Source of the DNA: Changchengzhania lutea
GTDB taxonomy: Bacteria > Bacteroidota > Bacteroidia > Flavobacteriales > Flavobacteriaceae
Length of the DNA stretch: 64,000 nucleotides
NCBI RefSeq assembly: GCF_006974145.1
Contig: NZ_CP039456.1
Coordinates: 2,604,499 to 2,668,498, forward strand
Reading direction: 5' to 3'
Below are positions 4,018 through 20,880 of the stretch, in pieces. The notes beneath the pieces were generated by a model. The model saw nothing but the letters and a program-made list of their open reading frames with translations. It searched no databases and was not told where the DNA came from. Both the position numbers and the translations under genes were made by a program. Numbering within the stretch: position 1 is the stretch's first letter; every line of letters begins with the position of its first letter.

Positions 4018-4068
4018 TGTCATAAATCACTGAGTAAGTGATATAAGTTCATAAACGTATTTACAGTG

Positions 4069-4172
4069 TTATCAAGAAAGGCAGAGGGATTAGACCCGTT
4101 GAAGCCTTGGCAACCCTTTATTTTTTAAAGAAGGTGCTACATTCTACTAATTATTCTTAATTAGAAAGATAA
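4069..4172 (+). ncRNA. SAM-I (S-box) riboswitch upstream of metH
   Basis: P1 is formed by TTATC (4069-4073) and GATAA (4168-4172). Between them lie the S-box core elements AGAGGGATTAGACCC and GAAGCCTTGGCAACC, then AAGGTGCTACATTCTA, in the order known for the SAM-I family. S-adenosylmethionine binding should turn down the methionine synthase genes that follow. The downstream hairpin GAAAAGT (4174-4180) / ACTTTTC (4191-4197) is a candidate expression platform. It lacks a U-tract, so whether control is at transcription or translation is unclear. Confidence 0.92.
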
Positions 4173-4228
4173 CGAAAAGTGTTTCTCCTTACTTTTCTTG
4201 ATGACATACAGATATAAATAATATCAAA

Positions 4229-8340: not shown

Positions 8341-8475
8341 TTACATAACAGTGGTGCGTTAGCGATTGTAGCAACATCCTTTTTTGAGATTATCGAAACC
8401 AAAATATTTTTTGGTTGAAGATATCGAAGTGAAGCTTTAAAAAAGATATAGCGGAAAGCGCGACCGTGAGCATTT

Positions 8476-15374: not shown

Positions 15375-16271
15375 TTATTTTGAAGTTAGGTCTCTAAATA
15401 AACTTTCTAAACTCGCATTTTTCTGATTAAGCTGAAGTATTTTTAATTGATTGTCATGCGCAAAATCAAAAACGTAGGAGCGCATATCTTTCTTAGTGTT
15501 AAATGTGATTTCATAAATAAAATCATGGGTGTTTCTAACCTTTTTAACGTTTGGTAGCTTTAATAAAAAAGCATCTTCAACACGGTAATCAAATTCCACA
15601 ATAACAATCTGTGCTTCACCTTCCCGCAATTCTTTTAAGTTTTTATCGGCTACAATTTCACCTTTATTAATAATAATAACACGATCGCACATGGCTTCAA
15701 CCTCTTGCATAATATGTGTGGAAAGAAAAACGGTTTTCGTTGTGCCTATTTGTTTAATAAGATTCCTAATATCAATTAACTGGTTGGGGTCTAATCCTGT
15801 AGTCGGCTCGTCCAAAATCAAGACCTCAGGGTCGTGCAACAGCGCATTTGCCAACCCTACGCGCTGTCTGTAGCCTTTAGAAAGTTGTCCTATTTTTTTG
15901 TCTACTTCTGGGCTAAGTCCAGTGAGTTGAATGACATCCTCTATGCGAGATTTAGAAACCTTATAAATACTCGCATTAAAGTTTAAATATTCCCGAACAT
16001 ACATATCTAAATACAAGGGATTGTGCTCTGGTAAATAGCCCACACTTTGTTGTACGTTTTGAGTGTCTTCGCAAATGTCAAAACCATTAACCTTGGCATT
16101 ACCTTCACTCGTAGCGATATAGGTCGCCAAAATTTTTATCATTGTTGATTTTCCTGCCCCATTAGGCCCAAGAAAACCAACAATTTCTGGCTTTTTAATT
16201 TTGAAAGACACTTGGTTAAGAGCCTTTTGGGTGCCATAAAATTTCGAAATGTTTTCTACTTCTATCGACAT
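15375..16271 (-). CDS. gldA: Gliding motility-associated ABC transporter ATP-binding protein
   Basis: The 298-residue ATPase has Walker A GPNGAGKS (about residues 35-42), the signature region LSKGYRQRVGLANALLHDPEVLILDEPTTGLDP (about 129-161) with Walker B, and the H-loop STHIMQE (about 184-190). Length, the N-terminal MSIEVENISKFYGTQKAL and the C-terminal SLESLFRDLTS match GldA, which works with membrane subunits GldF and GldG in Flavobacteriia gliding. Those partners are not in this window. Any CcmA/Nod-type ABC ATPase would look similar, but the gldBC genes at 40038-41335 support a gliding organism. Confidence 0.85.
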   Translation of the reverse strand: MSIEVENISKFYGTQKALNQVSFKIKKPEIVGFLGPNGAGKSTMIKILATYIATSEGNAKVNGFDICEDTQNVQQSVGYLPEHNPLYLDMYVREYLNFNASIYKVSKSRIEDVIQLTGLSPEVDKKIGQLSKGYRQRVGLANALLHDPEVLILDEPTTGLDPNQLIDIRNLIKQIGTTKTVFLSTHIMQEVEAMCDRVIIINKGEIVADKNLKELREGEAQIVIVEFDYRVEDAFLLKLPNVKKVRNTHDFIYEITFNTKKDMRSYVFDFAHDNQLKILQLNQKNASLESLFRDLTSK

Positions 16272-16484: not shown

Positions 16485-16658
16485 AAAATGTAGTCTTGAA
16501 AGTGAAAACGAGAATGAAATGAAAGGTTTTGGTTCCAAGCCATTTTAAGATGTCATAGAATAATTGATGCTTAGTTTGGGATAATATAATGTAAAGGTAG
16601 TTTTGCTGTAAAATCTTTAAATTTTTTCTGAAATGCGTAAAAAAGCAAGAGCACAATT
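16485..16658. other. AT-rich spacer without recognised feature
   Basis: Nothing convincing is seen between repeat copy A and the promoter of the aromatic leader. Confidence 0.5.
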
Positions 16659-16687
16659 TTGATTTGAAGAAATATTAATTACTTTAG
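16659..16687 (+). promoter_or_regulatory. Promoter of the aromatic amino acid operon leader
   Basis: TTG (16659-16661), an 18-base spacer and TACTTTAG (16680-16687) resemble the TTG / TAnnTTTG pattern with one mismatch. Transcription would start close to 16694, just before the leader peptide ATG at 16698. Confidence 0.45.
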
Positions 16688-16697
16688 CCACCTAATT

Positions 16698-16781
16698 ATG
16701 ACAACAACAGGAACTTATACATATTTTAACAATTGGTTTTATTTCTTTTTTAATAAAAGGAACGAGGCGTTGTATGTATAA
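16698..16781 (+). CDS. Aromatic-rich leader peptide controlling the pheA operon
   Basis: A 27-codon reading frame starts at ATG 16698 and stops at 16779-16781. Its product begins MTTTGTYTYFNNWFYFFF, so 9 of residues 7-18 are Tyr, Phe or Trp (TAT, TTT, TTC, TGG codons). It ends NKRNEALYV. A run of codons for the end products of the downstream operon, followed by a terminator just before pheA, is the hallmark of ribosome-mediated transcription attenuation. Shortage of charged Phe or Tyr tRNA would stall the ribosome in 16716-16751. The peptide is too short for ordinary gene calling. No function for the peptide itself is expected. Confidence 0.85.
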   Translation: MTTTGTYTYFNNWFYFFFNKRNEALYV

Positions 16782-16812
16782 TTTATAAACATAAATTAAA
16801 ACATGAGTCTCG
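16763..16812 (+). promoter_or_regulatory. Candidate antiterminator pairing of the pheA attenuator
   Basis: CGAGGC (16763-16768) can pair with GTCTCG (16807-16812) with one wobble, and ATGT (16774-16777) with ACAT (16801-16804). The first pairing would consume the 5' arm of the terminator at 16806-16827. It begins about 12 bases downstream of the last codon of the aromatic run, where a stalled ribosome would leave it free. Confidence 0.55.
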
Positions 16813-16833
16813 ATGAAAATCGGGACTTTTTTT
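16806..16833 (+). terminator. Attenuator terminator before pheA
   Basis: The stem AGTCTCGAT (16806-16814) / ATCGGGACT (16819-16827) has nine pairs including one G-U, a GAAA loop and a run of seven T bases from 16827. The pheA ATG begins only five bases later, so termination here silences the operon. Confidence 0.85.
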
Positions 16834-16837
16834 ATAT

Positions 16838-17665
16838 ATGATAACAACGGTAGCTATACAAGGCGTCAAAGGATCATTTCACCATATTGTGTCACAACAA
16901 TATTTTGATGACTCTGTAAAACTTGTTGAATGTTTAACATTCGATAGGGTAGTGGACGCTTTAATTACTAAAGAAAGTGATGCTGCTATTATGGCTTTAG
17001 AAAACTCTATTGCTGGTTCTATTATTCCCAATTATGCCTTAATTGATAAATACGATTTACACGTTGTAGGAGAGCATTATTTGGATATTCAACACAATTT
17101 GATGGCGCTGCCAAATCAAGATATCGAATCTATTAAAGAGGTGTTTTCGCACCCTATGGCCTTATTACAATGTAAAGAATTTTTTAAGAATCACCCGCAT
17201 ATAAAACTGGTTGAGGATAAAGATACAGCGGAGGTCGCAGAGCGTATTCAAAAGCATAAGCTTAAAGGAGTTGGTGCCATAGCCAGTGTTATGGCTGCTG
17301 AGGTTTTTGATTTGGATATAATGGCAAAAAGTATTCAAACCATTAAGCATAATGAAACACGTTTTGCTATTGTGAAACGAACCAATTCTGAGATTCCAGA
17401 AAGCGAGATGACTAAGGCATCCATTAAATTTGAAACCGACCATAAGCGTGGAAGTTTAGCGGCTATTTTAAATGTGATGAGCGATTGTAAGCTAAACTTA
17501 ACAAAAATTCAATCATTACCTATCATAGAAACCCCGTGGAAGTACGCTTTTTTTGTGGATGTAACTTTTGAAAATTATACAGATTTTAAGAAGGCAAAAT
17601 CGATCATGAGTATTATGGGGGAAAGTTTTAAAGTATTGGGTGAATATAAAAATGCCAAGATATGA
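16838..17665 (+). CDS. pheA: Prephenate dehydratase
   Basis: Converts prephenate to phenylpyruvate. This 275-residue monofunctional enzyme has a periplasmic-binding-protein-like catalytic part (about residues 1-180: VAIQGVKGSFHHIVS, ALENSIAGSIIPNYALI, THxxA-like region AEVAERI, KHNETRFAIVKR). A C-terminal ACT domain (about 195-270) follows, with RGSLAAILNVMSDCKLNLTKIQSLPI for allosteric phenylalanine sensing. The usual ESRP motif reads QSLP here. The start codon lies directly after the attenuator U-tract with no Shine-Dalgarno sequence. It heads an operon with the aminotransferase, tyrA and DAHP synthase. Confidence 0.93.
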   Translation: MITTVAIQGVKGSFHHIVSQQYFDDSVKLVECLTFDRVVDALITKESDAAIMALENSIAGSIIPNYALIDKYDLHVVGEHYLDIQHNLMALPNQDIESIKEVFSHPMALLQCKEFFKNHPHIKLVEDKDTAEVAERIQKHKLKGVGAIASVMAAEVFDLDIMAKSIQTIKHNETRFAIVKRTNSEIPESEMTKASIKFETDHKRGSLAAILNVMSDCKLNLTKIQSLPIIETPWKYAFFVDVTFENYTDFKKAKSIMSIMGESFKVLGEYKNAKI

Positions 17666-18807
17666 TTGAGGTTGCTAATCGATTACATACCGTTGAAGAA
17701 TACTACTTTTCTAAAAAATTAAGAGAGGTTAATTTGCTTATTGCTAGTGGTAAACCTATTATAAATTTAGGCATTGGCAGTCCAGATTTGCAACCACCGC
17801 AAAAAGTGGTAGATGCTTTAGTGGAAGGTTTGTTAAGTCCTGTTGCCCATAAATACCAGAGTTATCAAGGTATTCCAGCATTGCGAGAAGCTATCACTGG
17901 TTTTTATAAAGAACATTACGCCGTTAATTTAAGCCCAAATACAGAAGTGCTGCCGTTAATGGGGAGTAAGGAAGGGATTATGCATATTTCTATGGCCTAT
18001 TTAAATGAGGGCGATGAAGTTTTAATTCCTAACCCTGGTTATCCAACTTACGAATCGGTTACAAAATTGGTGGGTGCTAAACCGGTATTTTACGAGCTGG
18101 ACGCAAAAAATAATTGGTTGCCAGATTTGAAAGTATTGGCACAGTTGGATTTAAGTCAAGTAAAGTTGATGTGGGTAAATTATCCGCATATGCCAACTGG
18201 AGCTAAGGCAACAGATAAGTTGTTTAAAGAATTGGTTGCATTCGCTAAAAAGCATCATATTTTAGTTGTCAATGACAACCCATATAGTTTTATTCTTAAC
18301 GAACCTCCAAAAAGCATTTTGAGTGTTGAAGGAGCTAAAGACGTTTGCTTAGAACTTAATTCGCTAAGTAAAACATTTAATATGGCGGGATGGCGCGTTG
18401 GTATGGTCGTAGGCAGTAGCGAGCATATTAGTAATATATTGAAAGTAAAAAGCAATATGGATTCAGGTATGTTTTATGGCATCCAAAAAGGTGCTGTTGA
18501 AGCATTAAAATGTTCTAAAATGTGGTTTGTAACTTTGAATAGTGTATATCAGCAACGTCGGAATTTGGTATGGCAGCTGGCTGATGCCTTAAATTGTACA
18601 TACGATAAGAAGGCTTCGGGGTTGTTTGTTTGGGCTAAATTACCAGCGTATCTAAAATCGGAAGAGTTTATAGATTTGGTGCTAAAGGAAAACCATATTT
18701 TCATAACACCGGGTACTATTTTTGGGAGCAAAGGAGAAGGCTATATTCGGTTTTCGTTATGTGCACAGACAGAAGATTTAGAAGAAGCGATAGCTAGGGT
18801 GAAATGA
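17662..18807 (+). CDS. PLP-dependent class I/II aminotransferase (aromatic operon)
   Basis: The 381-residue fold-type I aminotransferase shows GIGSPDLQPP (about residues 38-47), the phosphate-binding region LMGSKEGIM, NPGYPTYES, WVNYPHMPTGA, and the PLP lysine in SLSKTFNMAGWRVGM. It overlaps pheA by 4 bases (ATGA), so it is translationally coupled. In this operon the likely reaction is transamination of phenylpyruvate and 4-hydroxyphenylpyruvate to Phe and Tyr. That substrate choice is inferred from context, because the sequence family also includes aspartate and LL-diaminopimelate aminotransferases. Confidence 0.85.
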   Translation: MIEVANRLHTVEEYYFSKKLREVNLLIASGKPIINLGIGSPDLQPPQKVVDALVEGLLSPVAHKYQSYQGIPALREAITGFYKEHYAVNLSPNTEVLPLMGSKEGIMHISMAYLNEGDEVLIPNPGYPTYESVTKLVGAKPVFYELDAKNNWLPDLKVLAQLDLSQVKLMWVNYPHMPTGAKATDKLFKELVAFAKKHHILVVNDNPYSFILNEPPKSILSVEGAKDVCLELNSLSKTFNMAGWRVGMVVGSSEHISNILKVKSNMDSGMFYGIQKGAVEALKCSKMWFVTLNSVYQQRRNLVWQLADALNCTYDKKASGLFVWAKLPAYLKSEEFIDLVLKENHIFITPGTIFGSKGEGYIRFSLCAQTEDLEEAIARVK

Positions 18808-18934: not shown

Positions 18935-19786
18935 ATGAAAAATATATATGTCATAGGAGTTGGATTAATTGGCGGGAGTCTGGCGTTGGACTTTAAAAAG
19001 CTGGACAAGGACATCTGTGTTTATGGAATAGACCATAACAACACGCATTTAGATGAGGCAATCACTCTAAACGTTATAGATAAGAAGGCGGAATTAGAGG
19101 ATATTAAAAATGCAGATTTGGTCATTTTGTCAATTCCTGTAGATGCTTCAGTAACTATGATTACAGATGTGTTAGACCAAATTTCGGATAATACTTTGGT
19201 TATAGATGTGGGCTCTACAAAGAGGGATATATGCAAAGCGACAGAAAATCATCCAAACAGGCGTAATTTTTTAGCGATGCATCCCATTGCAGGAACCGAG
19301 TTTTCTGGACCAAAAGCGGCTATTCATGGCCTATTTCAAAATAAAACGAACATCATTTGTGAGGTCGAAGAAACAGCGTTTACATTGCAAGAAACCGCAT
19401 TAAAAATGTTTTCTCAAATAGGAATGCGTATTCGGTATATGAACCCTAAAGCACACGATAAGCATATTGCCTATGTGTCACATTTATCTCACATTAGTTC
19501 ATTTATGTTAGGTAAAACGGTGATTGAAAAGGAGAAAAACGAACGTGATATATTCGATATGGCGGGGAGTGGATTTGCTTCTACCGTGCGTTTAGCAAAA
19601 AGTTCCCCAGAGATGTGGACACCCATTTTTAAACAGAATAAAGAGAACGTTATTGAAACTTTGGAAGAGTATATTGTGAATCTGACGCATTTTAAAGAGT
19701 TGATGAAAGCGGACAATTTTGAAGCCATTTTTAACGACATGAAAAACACCAATCATATAAAAGATATTTTAAAAGGAATTGCTTAA
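18935..19786 (+). CDS. tyrA: Prephenate dehydrogenase
   Basis: The 283-residue NAD-dependent enzyme oxidatively decarboxylates prephenate to 4-hydroxyphenylpyruvate, the tyrosine branch. A Rossmann motif, IGVGLIGGSLALDF, lies at residues 7-20. The catalytic region contains DVGSTKRDI and FLAMHPIAGTEFSGPKAA (about 112-129) with the conserved His. HIAYVSHLSHISSFML and SGFASTVRLAKSSPEMW follow. No ACT or chorismate mutase domain is attached; the mutase activity is fused to the next gene. A 127-base repeat-containing gap separates it from the aminotransferase, yet direction and pathway place it in the same operon. Confidence 0.92.
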   Translation: MKNIYVIGVGLIGGSLALDFKKLDKDICVYGIDHNNTHLDEAITLNVIDKKAELEDIKNADLVILSIPVDASVTMITDVLDQISDNTLVIDVGSTKRDICKATENHPNRRNFLAMHPIAGTEFSGPKAAIHGLFQNKTNIICEVEETAFTLQETALKMFSQIGMRIRYMNPKAHDKHIAYVSHLSHISSFMLGKTVIEKEKNERDIFDMAGSGFASTVRLAKSSPEMWTPIFKQNKENVIETLEEYIVNLTHFKELMKADNFEAIFNDMKNTNHIKDILKGIA

Positions 19787-19797
19787 GTAGTAAAATT

Positions 19798-20880
19798 ATG
19801 GAGAACAAGAAAGAATTAGGAAATTGGTTAAATGATTTAAAATTAAATCATCCTTTGGTTATTGCAGGACCATGCAGTGCCGAAACAGAAGAACAAGTGT
19901 TAAAAATAGCCCATGCGCTAAAAGATACCGATGTGAGTTACTTTAGGGCAGGTATTTGGAAACCTAGAACCCGCCCAGGCATGTTTGAAGGTGTTGGTGC
20001 TTTAGGCCTAAAATGGTTGCAAAAAGTTAAGTCAGAAACAGGCATGAAAACGGCAACAGAAGTCGCTAATGCTGCGCATGTTAAATTGGCTTTAGAGCAT
20101 GATATTGATTTATTATGGATTGGAGCACGATCTACAGTGAGCCCGTTTATTGTTCAAGAAATAGCAGATGCTTTAAAGGGCACTGACAAAGTGGTTTTAG
20201 TGAAAAATCCAGTTAATCCAGATTTACCATTGTGGTTAGGTGCCATAGAACGTTTGGCTACTGCGGATATTAATAAATTGGGTGTGATTCACAGAGGTTT
20301 TTCTACCTACGAAAAAACAAAATACAGAAATAATCCAGAGTGGCAAATAGCGATTGAGTTGCAGACAAAATTTCCAGATTTGCCTATTATCAACGATCCA
20401 TCACATATTACAGGTAAAAGGGATATGATTTTAGATGTGTCGCAAACCGCATTGGATTTGAATTTTGATGGCTTAATGATCGAGACCCATTATGATCCAG
20501 AAAATGCATGGAGTGATGCTGCACAACAAGTGACACCAGATAGTTTAATTCAAATTATGAAAGATTTAAGAATTAGAAAAGAAACCGATTCTGAAGCAGA
20601 ATATAACAATGCACTGAATAATTTAAGAGCCCAAATAGACGTGGTCGATAATCAGATTATTGATTTGTTAGGGAAACGAATGAAAGCTGCCGACGGTATT
20701 GGCGTCCTTAAAAAACAAAAAAACGTAGCGGTACTTCAAAGCAAACGTTGGAATGAAATATTAGGGAATATGGTTTTAGAAGGCAATCATAGAGGTCTTA
20801 GTGAAGAATTTATATTACGAATGTTTAAAGCCATTCATCAAGAATCCATCAATCATCAAGAAAAGATTATAAATGGATAA
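19798..20880 (+). CDS. Bifunctional DAHP synthase / chorismate mutase (type II)
   Basis: The 360-residue protein joins a 3-deoxy-7-phosphoheptulonate synthase (about residues 1-255: VIAGPCSAETEEQ, RAGIWKPRTRPG, DLLWIGARSTVSPF, VLVKNPVNPD, GVIHRGFSTYEKTKYRN, PIINDPSHITGKRD, GLMIETHYDPENAWSDA) to a C-terminal AroQ-type chorismate mutase (about 270-355: LRAQIDVVDNQIIDLLGKRMKAADGIG, and SEEFILRMFKAIHQESI). It therefore covers the entry of the shikimate pathway and the committed Phe/Tyr step. It starts 11 bases after tyrA and closes the operon before a strong terminator. Fusion of this kind is common in Bacteroidota. Confidence 0.94.
   Translation: MENKKELGNWLNDLKLNHPLVIAGPCSAETEEQVLKIAHALKDTDVSYFRAGIWKPRTRPGMFEGVGALGLKWLQKVKSETGMKTATEVANAAHVKLALEHDIDLLWIGARSTVSPFIVQEIADALKGTDKVVLVKNPVNPDLPLWLGAIERLATADINKLGVIHRGFSTYEKTKYRNNPEWQIAIELQTKFPDLPIINDPSHITGKRDMILDVSQTALDLNFDGLMIETHYDPENAWSDAAQQVTPDSLIQIMKDLRIRKETDSEAEYNNALNNLRAQIDVVDNQIIDLLGKRMKAADGIGVLKKQKNVAVLQSKRWNEILGNMVLEGNHRGLSEEFILRMFKAIHQESINHQEKIING

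Follow-up and report, generated by a model that had tools for sequence, protein, structure and literature searches.

In the plan represented by Phe_leader, pheA is preceded by a leader peptide with end-product codons, a terminator and an alternative pairing, and the element analysed here is alike. The pheL leader of E. coli carries Phe codons only, the Tyr genes being under TyrR, and the ilvGMEDA and thr leaders are examples of one leader reading several amino acids, through branched-chain or Thr/Ile codons. Attenuation of pheA is named in PMC1183508, together with the ilvGMEDA and thr attenuators of enterobacteria, and Bacteroid-trp was listed by Weinberg et al. 2010 (PMC2864571). For Flavobacterium psychrophilum, strong clues for leader-peptide attenuation before amino-acid operons were described by Guerin et al. 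2021 (PMC9723704), along with a structured element 5′ of pheA without an Rfam match; the pheA and hisG 5′ elements were present in other Flavobacteriaceae genera, also with no Rfam hits. The text on pheA in that paper contains no leader sequence, antiterminator, covariation or distribution outside the family, and its element is presumably the same as the one found here. To that text, the present analysis adds the anatomy, the covariation, a codon-by-codon prediction and the class-wide distribution. Literature searches returned no title describing the pheA leader, and the survey of Lopatovskaya et al. 2010 (cited in PMC4833913) may contain Bacteroidetes cases.

The window, the whole 64-kb stretch of Changchengzhania lutea DNA that was analysed, carries four plus-strand genes in series. 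The first is pheA, for prephenate dehydratase (16838–17665; PF00800, E 1.5e-55), whose best NCBIfam match was also prephenate dehydratase, below its cut-off. It is followed by a class I/II aminotransferase gene, aat (17662–18807; PF00155, E 5.5e-60), by tyrA, for prephenate dehydrogenase (18935–19786; NF006307, 390.9 bits, cut-off 295), and by aroG/CM, for a DAHP synthase fused to chorismate mutase (19798–20880; PF00793 and PF01817). These domain matches agree with the claim of the earlier note that the operon makes Phe and Tyr. On the other side of the spacer, gldA (GldA by NCBIfam) starts on the minus strand with its ATG at 16271. The order pheA-aat-tyrA-aroG/CM was kept in 78 of 80 relatives, the remaining 2 being short contigs with part of the series; 75 of the 80 had gldA on the minus strand followed by the four genes on the plus strand, and 3 more had that order in a stretch that does not include gldA. 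In the window, aat and tyrA are separated by 127 nt in which no plus-strand terminator-like site was flagged. Co-regulation of the DAHP synthase with pheA is suggested by gene order, which is its basis.

Three features lie in the spacer between gldA and pheA: a promoter of the Flavobacteria type, an ORF of 27 codons and an intrinsic terminator. The predicted sigma-A promoter consists, on the plus strand, of a −33 element, TTTG (16658–16661), and, 18 nt away, a −7 box, TACTTTAG (16680–16687), close to the Flavobacteria consensus TAnnTTTG. A −7-type box was present in 143 of 147 family loci, and in 106 of the 147 a TTTG was located at most 27 nt from it, with the 18-nt spacing in 85 of those 106. 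The box occupies −12 to −5 in F. psychrophilum (PMC9723704), and by this rule transcription would start around 16692, placing the leader ATG about 6 nt into the RNA. The arrangement, just 5′ of that ATG, fits the close overlap of promoter and leader start that had been proposed. For translation initiation, this group reportedly relies on signals distinct from Shine-Dalgarno (PMC9723704). The same spacer contains a 19-nt perfect inverted repeat (16325–16343/16465–16483) with its arms 121 nt apart, possibly a small mobile element, and elsewhere in the window Rfam matched a SAM riboswitch (4066–4175, 91 bits) and a Flavo-1 RNA (8343–8469, 43.5 bits).

The leader ORF, MTTTGTYTYFNNWFYFFFNKRNEALYV, has 27 codons plus TAA and extends on the plus strand from the ATG at 16698 to 16781 (stop at 16779–16781); nine of its codons 7–18 (16716–16751, plus strand) are for Tyr, Phe or Trp, the same coordinates and count that had been read from the sequence before. 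It is thus a short ORF rich in end-product codons (9/12 F/Y/W) in front of a Phe/Tyr operon, and, among ATG-started ORFs of 12–60 codons on both strands of the 64 kb, the single one with at least 8 aromatic residues in 12. Chance was rejected as its origin: in 30 imitations of the entire window from a second-order Markov model, 17 ORFs reached 8/12 and none 9/12. The 149-nt RNA folded at −29.9 kcal/mol, compared to −17.0 ± 3.1 in 200 shuffles (z −4.1). In the rows of 80 close relatives, the eight aromatic columns contain 23 departures from the commonest residue, 18 of them to another aromatic one, a count made by hand over events that are not independent.

Downstream of the ORF, the intrinsic terminator occupies 16805–16833 of the plus strand, with a stem of 10 pairs and a loop of 4 (16805–16828) and a T-run at 16827–16833, in which six T columns were invariant in 53 aligned loci. 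Its presence before pheA had been claimed at 16806–16833 with a gap of five bases; the terminator is there, and the gap to the pheA ATG (16838) is four bases, not five. The core of its 5′ arm, region 3 (16807–16812, plus strand), reads GTCTCG. Complementary to it with one G-U pair is the antiterminator strand CGAGGC (16763–16768, plus strand), within the codons Asn22-Glu23-Ala24, as had been proposed for the alternative pairing.

A further hairpin could sequester this strand. In the MFE fold, region 1 (16715–16749, plus strand, including TATACATA and UUUCUUUU) forms the 5′ strand of a protector hairpin, and region 2 (16755–16782, plus strand), which extends over the leader's final codons and stop, forms the 3′ strand; the inverted repeat of this hairpin is 16712–16723/16773–16784. 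A pattern search matched the outer region 1:2 stem, TATACATA/TATGTATA, in 76 of 90 close relatives, with full pairing in all 76 and a TAC/GTG double change in six, and did not find it in the other 14. This stem would explain the near-invariance of the Thr codon between two Tyr codons (ACA in 78 of 80 close-relative rows). Across 164 loci, region 2 was paired upstream at 0.66–0.76 by group versus 0.43–0.56 in codon shuffles, and the fold, this contrast and the 76 of 90 close relatives together point to a region 1:2 protector hairpin. The nascent-RNA fold adds a helix nested inside the antiterminator (16773–16805, plus strand; 16773–16777/16801–16805 and 16779–16786/16791–16798). In 5 of 165 leaders (L015, L032, L047, L050 and L055) a stop codon lies just 5′ of region 2, making them a few codons shorter, so that region 2 is not inside every leader ORF.

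The upstream regions that were compared came from the best 80 loci, 30 loci from a second search, and 100 and then 40 further stretches among the matches listed; the second pheA search matched 268 of 299 genomes, and the loci used were those among the matches listed. Plus-strand genes were preferred in picking the 100. After 15 of 110 loci with identical last 200 bases were dropped, the 95 and the 100 together gave 189 sequences and finally 185 distinct ones, once the shifted copies L045, L084, L099 and L106 had been removed (L045 is from another species and identical over the compared stretch). The leaders in the final tallies went from 169 to 165 by leaving out these four copies, which are still included in the tail-shuffle, window-ORF chance, 22-locus exchange and codon-shuffle, aromatic-column and ribosome-position analyses. 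The 164 loci of the ribosome-position and region 2 upstream-pairing analyses are the 169 less 5 without region 2 in the searched tail.

Among the matches listed, 151 of 153 distinct same-family sequences have, ahead of pheA, a leader with at least 7 aromatic residues in 12 and then a terminator; for close relatives the count is 89 of 90, and for the wider family 62 of 63. An alignment of pheA upstream regions had been named in the earlier note as the way to check the idea, and the aromatic codon run and the terminator in these 151 of 153, with strands that covary, bear it out. The two misses are cut stretches: in L079 only the leader start is missing, where the contig begins, and in L127 the fetched stretch began at the element, cutting off the leader start. 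A loss of the element in L127 was rejected, as a covariance model found it at G013:C21:149150–149233, 515 nt before the pheA match. That locus also carries, between attenuator and pheA, a repeat starting at positions 192, 302 and 412 of the stretch, with a spacing of 110 nt, together with a GC-rich hairpin.

Of 12 sequences from the order's other families, 3 have leader plus terminator and 9 lack the element by the same criteria; two of the 12, L179 and L180, have a weaker leader with 5 aromatic residues, then a terminator. Other orders of the class had both features in 22 of 40, a leader by its criterion taken alone in 26 of 40, and no such two-feature element in 18 of 40. These 40 combine two sets of 20, with both features in 11 of 20 in the one and, in the other, both in 11 of 20 and the leader in 13 of 20; the scan that covered the second set and the phylum places also gave a leader without a hairpin by the criterion in L240 and L246, and a hairpin with 6 aromatic residues in L254. 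Elsewhere in the phylum, the element was found at 2 of 20 places and missing by the criteria at 18, an absence that is weak since about half of the 20 places are in longer open frames, so that part of the upstream stretch is coding; when all 600 nt were rescanned at the phylum places, the maximum was 6 aromatic residues per 12. Between distant genera, leaders agree in plan but not in sequence (MTKQYFWNGFYFYFFFKRGTGLL, MATNRFYFSNNFYFFFSRSQDCAMVI and MKLFNTYYFGYFYYFSKSRG, for example). A search of the C. lutea genome for a second copy, with a covariance model from 53 family loci, gave 8 hits at E up to 1, with the pheA copy at 3.6e-10 and the next match at 0.058.

The pairing between regions 2 and 3 was then followed in the 53 family loci, in which 98.4% of 317 cells pair in this register compared to at most 44.7% in slid registers. 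The family pairs are the antiterminator CGAGRC with the arm GTCTCG and CGGGAC with GTCCCG. The 24 double-changed cells all fall in one column and may reflect few events, and a measure of pairs with a change on both sides was not above shuffles for region 2:3 in the family (384 of 500 reach the observed value). In the terminator stem of the same 53 loci, 317 of 317 cells pair (100%), with three doubly changed positions.

Beyond these loci, further genera have the antiterminator/arm combinations CAGGATT/AATCCTG, GAGGCTTT/AAAGCCTC, AGAGCGGTC/GACCGCTTT, GCCGGGACT/AGTCCCGGC and others. Region 2 scored 10.68 against its own terminator arm. In comparison, 200 exchanges of arms among 146 distinct types gave 8.90 ± 0.13 and never more than 9.22, and shuffling of the tails gave 6.59 ± 0.16; the exchange is the fair control because region 2 was chosen as the best match in a short tail. 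For 22 loci grouped as order plus class, 8 of which are same-family sequences, all positive and counted with the family in the final tally, the score was 11.9 versus 8.6 ± 0.4 after exchange (0 of 500 reach it). A later set of 14 loci, made up of 11 class loci with both features, L254 and 2 phylum loci, gave 11.5 versus 9.8 ± 0.6 (0 of 1000). The alternative antiterminator is exclusive with the terminator and covaries with its arm. RNAalifold run on the family alignment A1 returned the terminator alone, as expected for mutually exclusive folds.

To place the ribosome on the leader, its edge was set 15 nt beyond the first P-site base, an E. coli-like assumption, and the free part of the RNA up to the terminator 5′ arm was folded. 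The predicted probability of the antiterminator was 0.97–0.99 with codons 4–18 in the A site and 0.83 with codon 19; with codon 20 it fell to 0.00 and stayed there up to the stop. Codon 18, the last of the aromatic run, is therefore right where the switch would cease to respond. Over the 164 loci, the mean at the last aromatic codon was 0.96 for the close relatives, 0.95 for the family and 0.87 for order plus class (8 of 22 same-family), and with the ribosome at the stop codon it was 0.00 in every group. Under the assumed footprint, a ribosome at the stop is thus predicted to mask region 2, and one at the control codons to leave it free. Folding of the full-length RNA favours the terminator over the antiterminator, even when the ribosome is stalled, so that antitermination must be kinetic.

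We propose that RNA polymerase starts at about 16692 and that a ribosome would load almost at the 5′ end of the RNA to translate the leader. With ample charged tRNA-Phe and tRNA-Tyr, this ribosome would reach the stop codon and cover region 2 (16763–16768), leaving region 3 (16807–16812) to pair with region 4, and transcription would end at about 16833. When Phe or Tyr is short (here perhaps Trp too), the ribosome would stall in codons 7–18; region 2 would then be free to pair with region 3 around the nested helix before region 4 is made, and transcription would continue into pheA-aat-tyrA-aroG/CM. With no ribosome on the leader, pairing of regions 1 and 2 would lead to the terminator by default. 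Sequence and prediction together indicate that the element is very probably a ribosome-mediated, leader-peptide transcription attenuator of the Phe/Tyr operon, and conservation, covariation and kept gene order support the attenuation mechanism that the earlier note had put forward for this Flavobacteriaceae operon as very probably right.

Regarding the amino acids that are read, codons for Phe and Tyr were present in 165 of 165 leaders, and Trp codons in 95 of 165, being absent from 70. A switch that reads all three aromatic amino acids equally seems unlikely on these numbers, Trp being missing from so many leaders and Phe and Tyr from none; in its favour, release of the switch is predicted for a ribosome stalled at codon 13, the single Trp codon in this genome, and against it, trpE of this genome is preceded by a WWW leader of its own. 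Joint control by the three aromatics, as claimed at the outset, is accordingly possible in this genome through codon 13, but is not what has been conserved: the core signal, as read from the codons, is Phe plus Tyr, with three-way control optional.

Other amino-acid operons of the same genome were inspected in the same manner. Upstream of hisG (L211), a His-rich leader, MNFIQIHHHFHICPQAK, from about 169 to 115 nt before the match, precedes a strong terminator, likely a his attenuator. At trpE (L212), the WWW leader MHTILNHTWWWSFRNLRS is followed by a terminator, and Rfam RF01692, Bacteroid-trp, matches at 1277–1401 with 63.6 bits (cut-off 49); a leader RNA of the same kind is thus already catalogued for Trp in the phylum. 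Leader codons therefore match the pathway in three operons of one genome, with Phe/Tyr at pheA, His at hisG and Trp at trpE. Upstream of ilvD, neither leader nor terminator was found. The ilvD stretch (L214) has a SAM-II riboswitch at 1033–1117 on the minus strand (54.9 bits), the strand opposite ilvD.

Other mechanisms might use a similar arrangement. In a nascent-peptide arrest switch, for which TnaC is the model, the peptide would stall the ribosome on free Phe or Tyr and not on tRNA charging, and the strikingly uniform close-family peptide, including its non-aromatic tail SKRNEALYV, would be expected from it. Region 2 and its covariation with the terminator arm nevertheless account for the tail, the near-fixation of many third codon positions points to the RNA over the peptide, and the leaders of other orders keep the aromatic run and little else (MKLFNTYYFGYFYYFSKSRG and MNTFATYFFFFFYYFYFSNEVKREFVYVR, for example); arrest by the peptide is therefore highly improbable. 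Hardly credible is direct sensing of the amino acid or tRNA by a ligand-binding riboswitch or T-box, with the ORF a mere coincidence. Such an RNA could account for the conserved structured pheA 5′ element without Rfam match in F. psychrophilum (PMC9723704), but no Rfam family reached threshold on the element, the leader is the richest in aromatic codons per 12 among the short ORFs of the window, and its codon run ends where a ribosome would begin to cover region 2.

That the hairpin at 16805–16828 acts on translation, hiding the pheA start while the T-run is incidental, draws on the 9 nt that separate the end of the hairpin from the pheA ATG in the window. In many relatives, however, the pheA match lies tens of nt further 3′ with hairpin and T-run kept, and six T columns are invariant in the 53 aligned loci, which leaves translational attenuation very unlikely. 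In L004, L007, L010, L014, L021, L031 and others, the pheA match starts at a TTG about 60 nt past the terminator, and in several genera a second inverted repeat, of the type CCTCAATGAAGATTGAGG, is located between the terminator and that TTG.

The reading of the element as a transcription attenuator makes the pheA leader a well-preserved case of a classical bacterial switch, very probably a sensor of Phe/Tyr shortage, and provides a complete and testable model of how Phe and Tyr production is regulated in a large group of bacteria from sea and soil. Provided that the predicted start site is correct, leader translation would begin about 6 nt into the RNA, and classical attenuation would be seen to work under that condition, in a group with reportedly non-Shine-Dalgarno initiation. 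Because the codon run mixes Phe and Tyr, either-or sensing by a single leader can be put to a direct test. On balance, we favour a broader view in which one attenuator, an either-or sensor of Phe and Tyr and sometimes Trp, has controlled a shared Phe/Tyr/DAHP operon throughout the Bacteroidia from a time before the orders of this class diverged, in bacteria whose translation reportedly starts without the usual Shine-Dalgarno signal, with a leader loaded almost at the 5′ end of the RNA, and with peptide and antiterminator repeatedly rewritten while the plan was kept.

Compared to the catalogued families, no entry of Rfam (release 15) reached its cut-off at the pheA element, either at the curated threshold or at higher E-values, and the element offers material for an RNA family lacking in that release, beside Bacteroid-trp. 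With Phe_leader (RF01859) it scored 16.3 bits (E 2.2, cut-off 55), and the best of 7 relatives 34.3 bits; RF01692 gave no match at the pheA leader (cut-off 49 bits). By sequence and predicted folding it has the features of a classical attenuator, without being a member of Rfam Phe_leader or Bacteroid-trp. Bacteroid-trp is likewise a Bacteroidetes leader RNA with a codon-rich peptide, but its codons are for Trp and its operon is trp. The reading of several amino acids would be common to the pheA leader and those of ilvGMEDA and thr, the codons being aromatic in pheA. In contrast to Phe_leader, the pheA element has mixed Phe and Tyr codons, often with Trp, and precedes an operon for Phe, Tyr and DAHP synthase.
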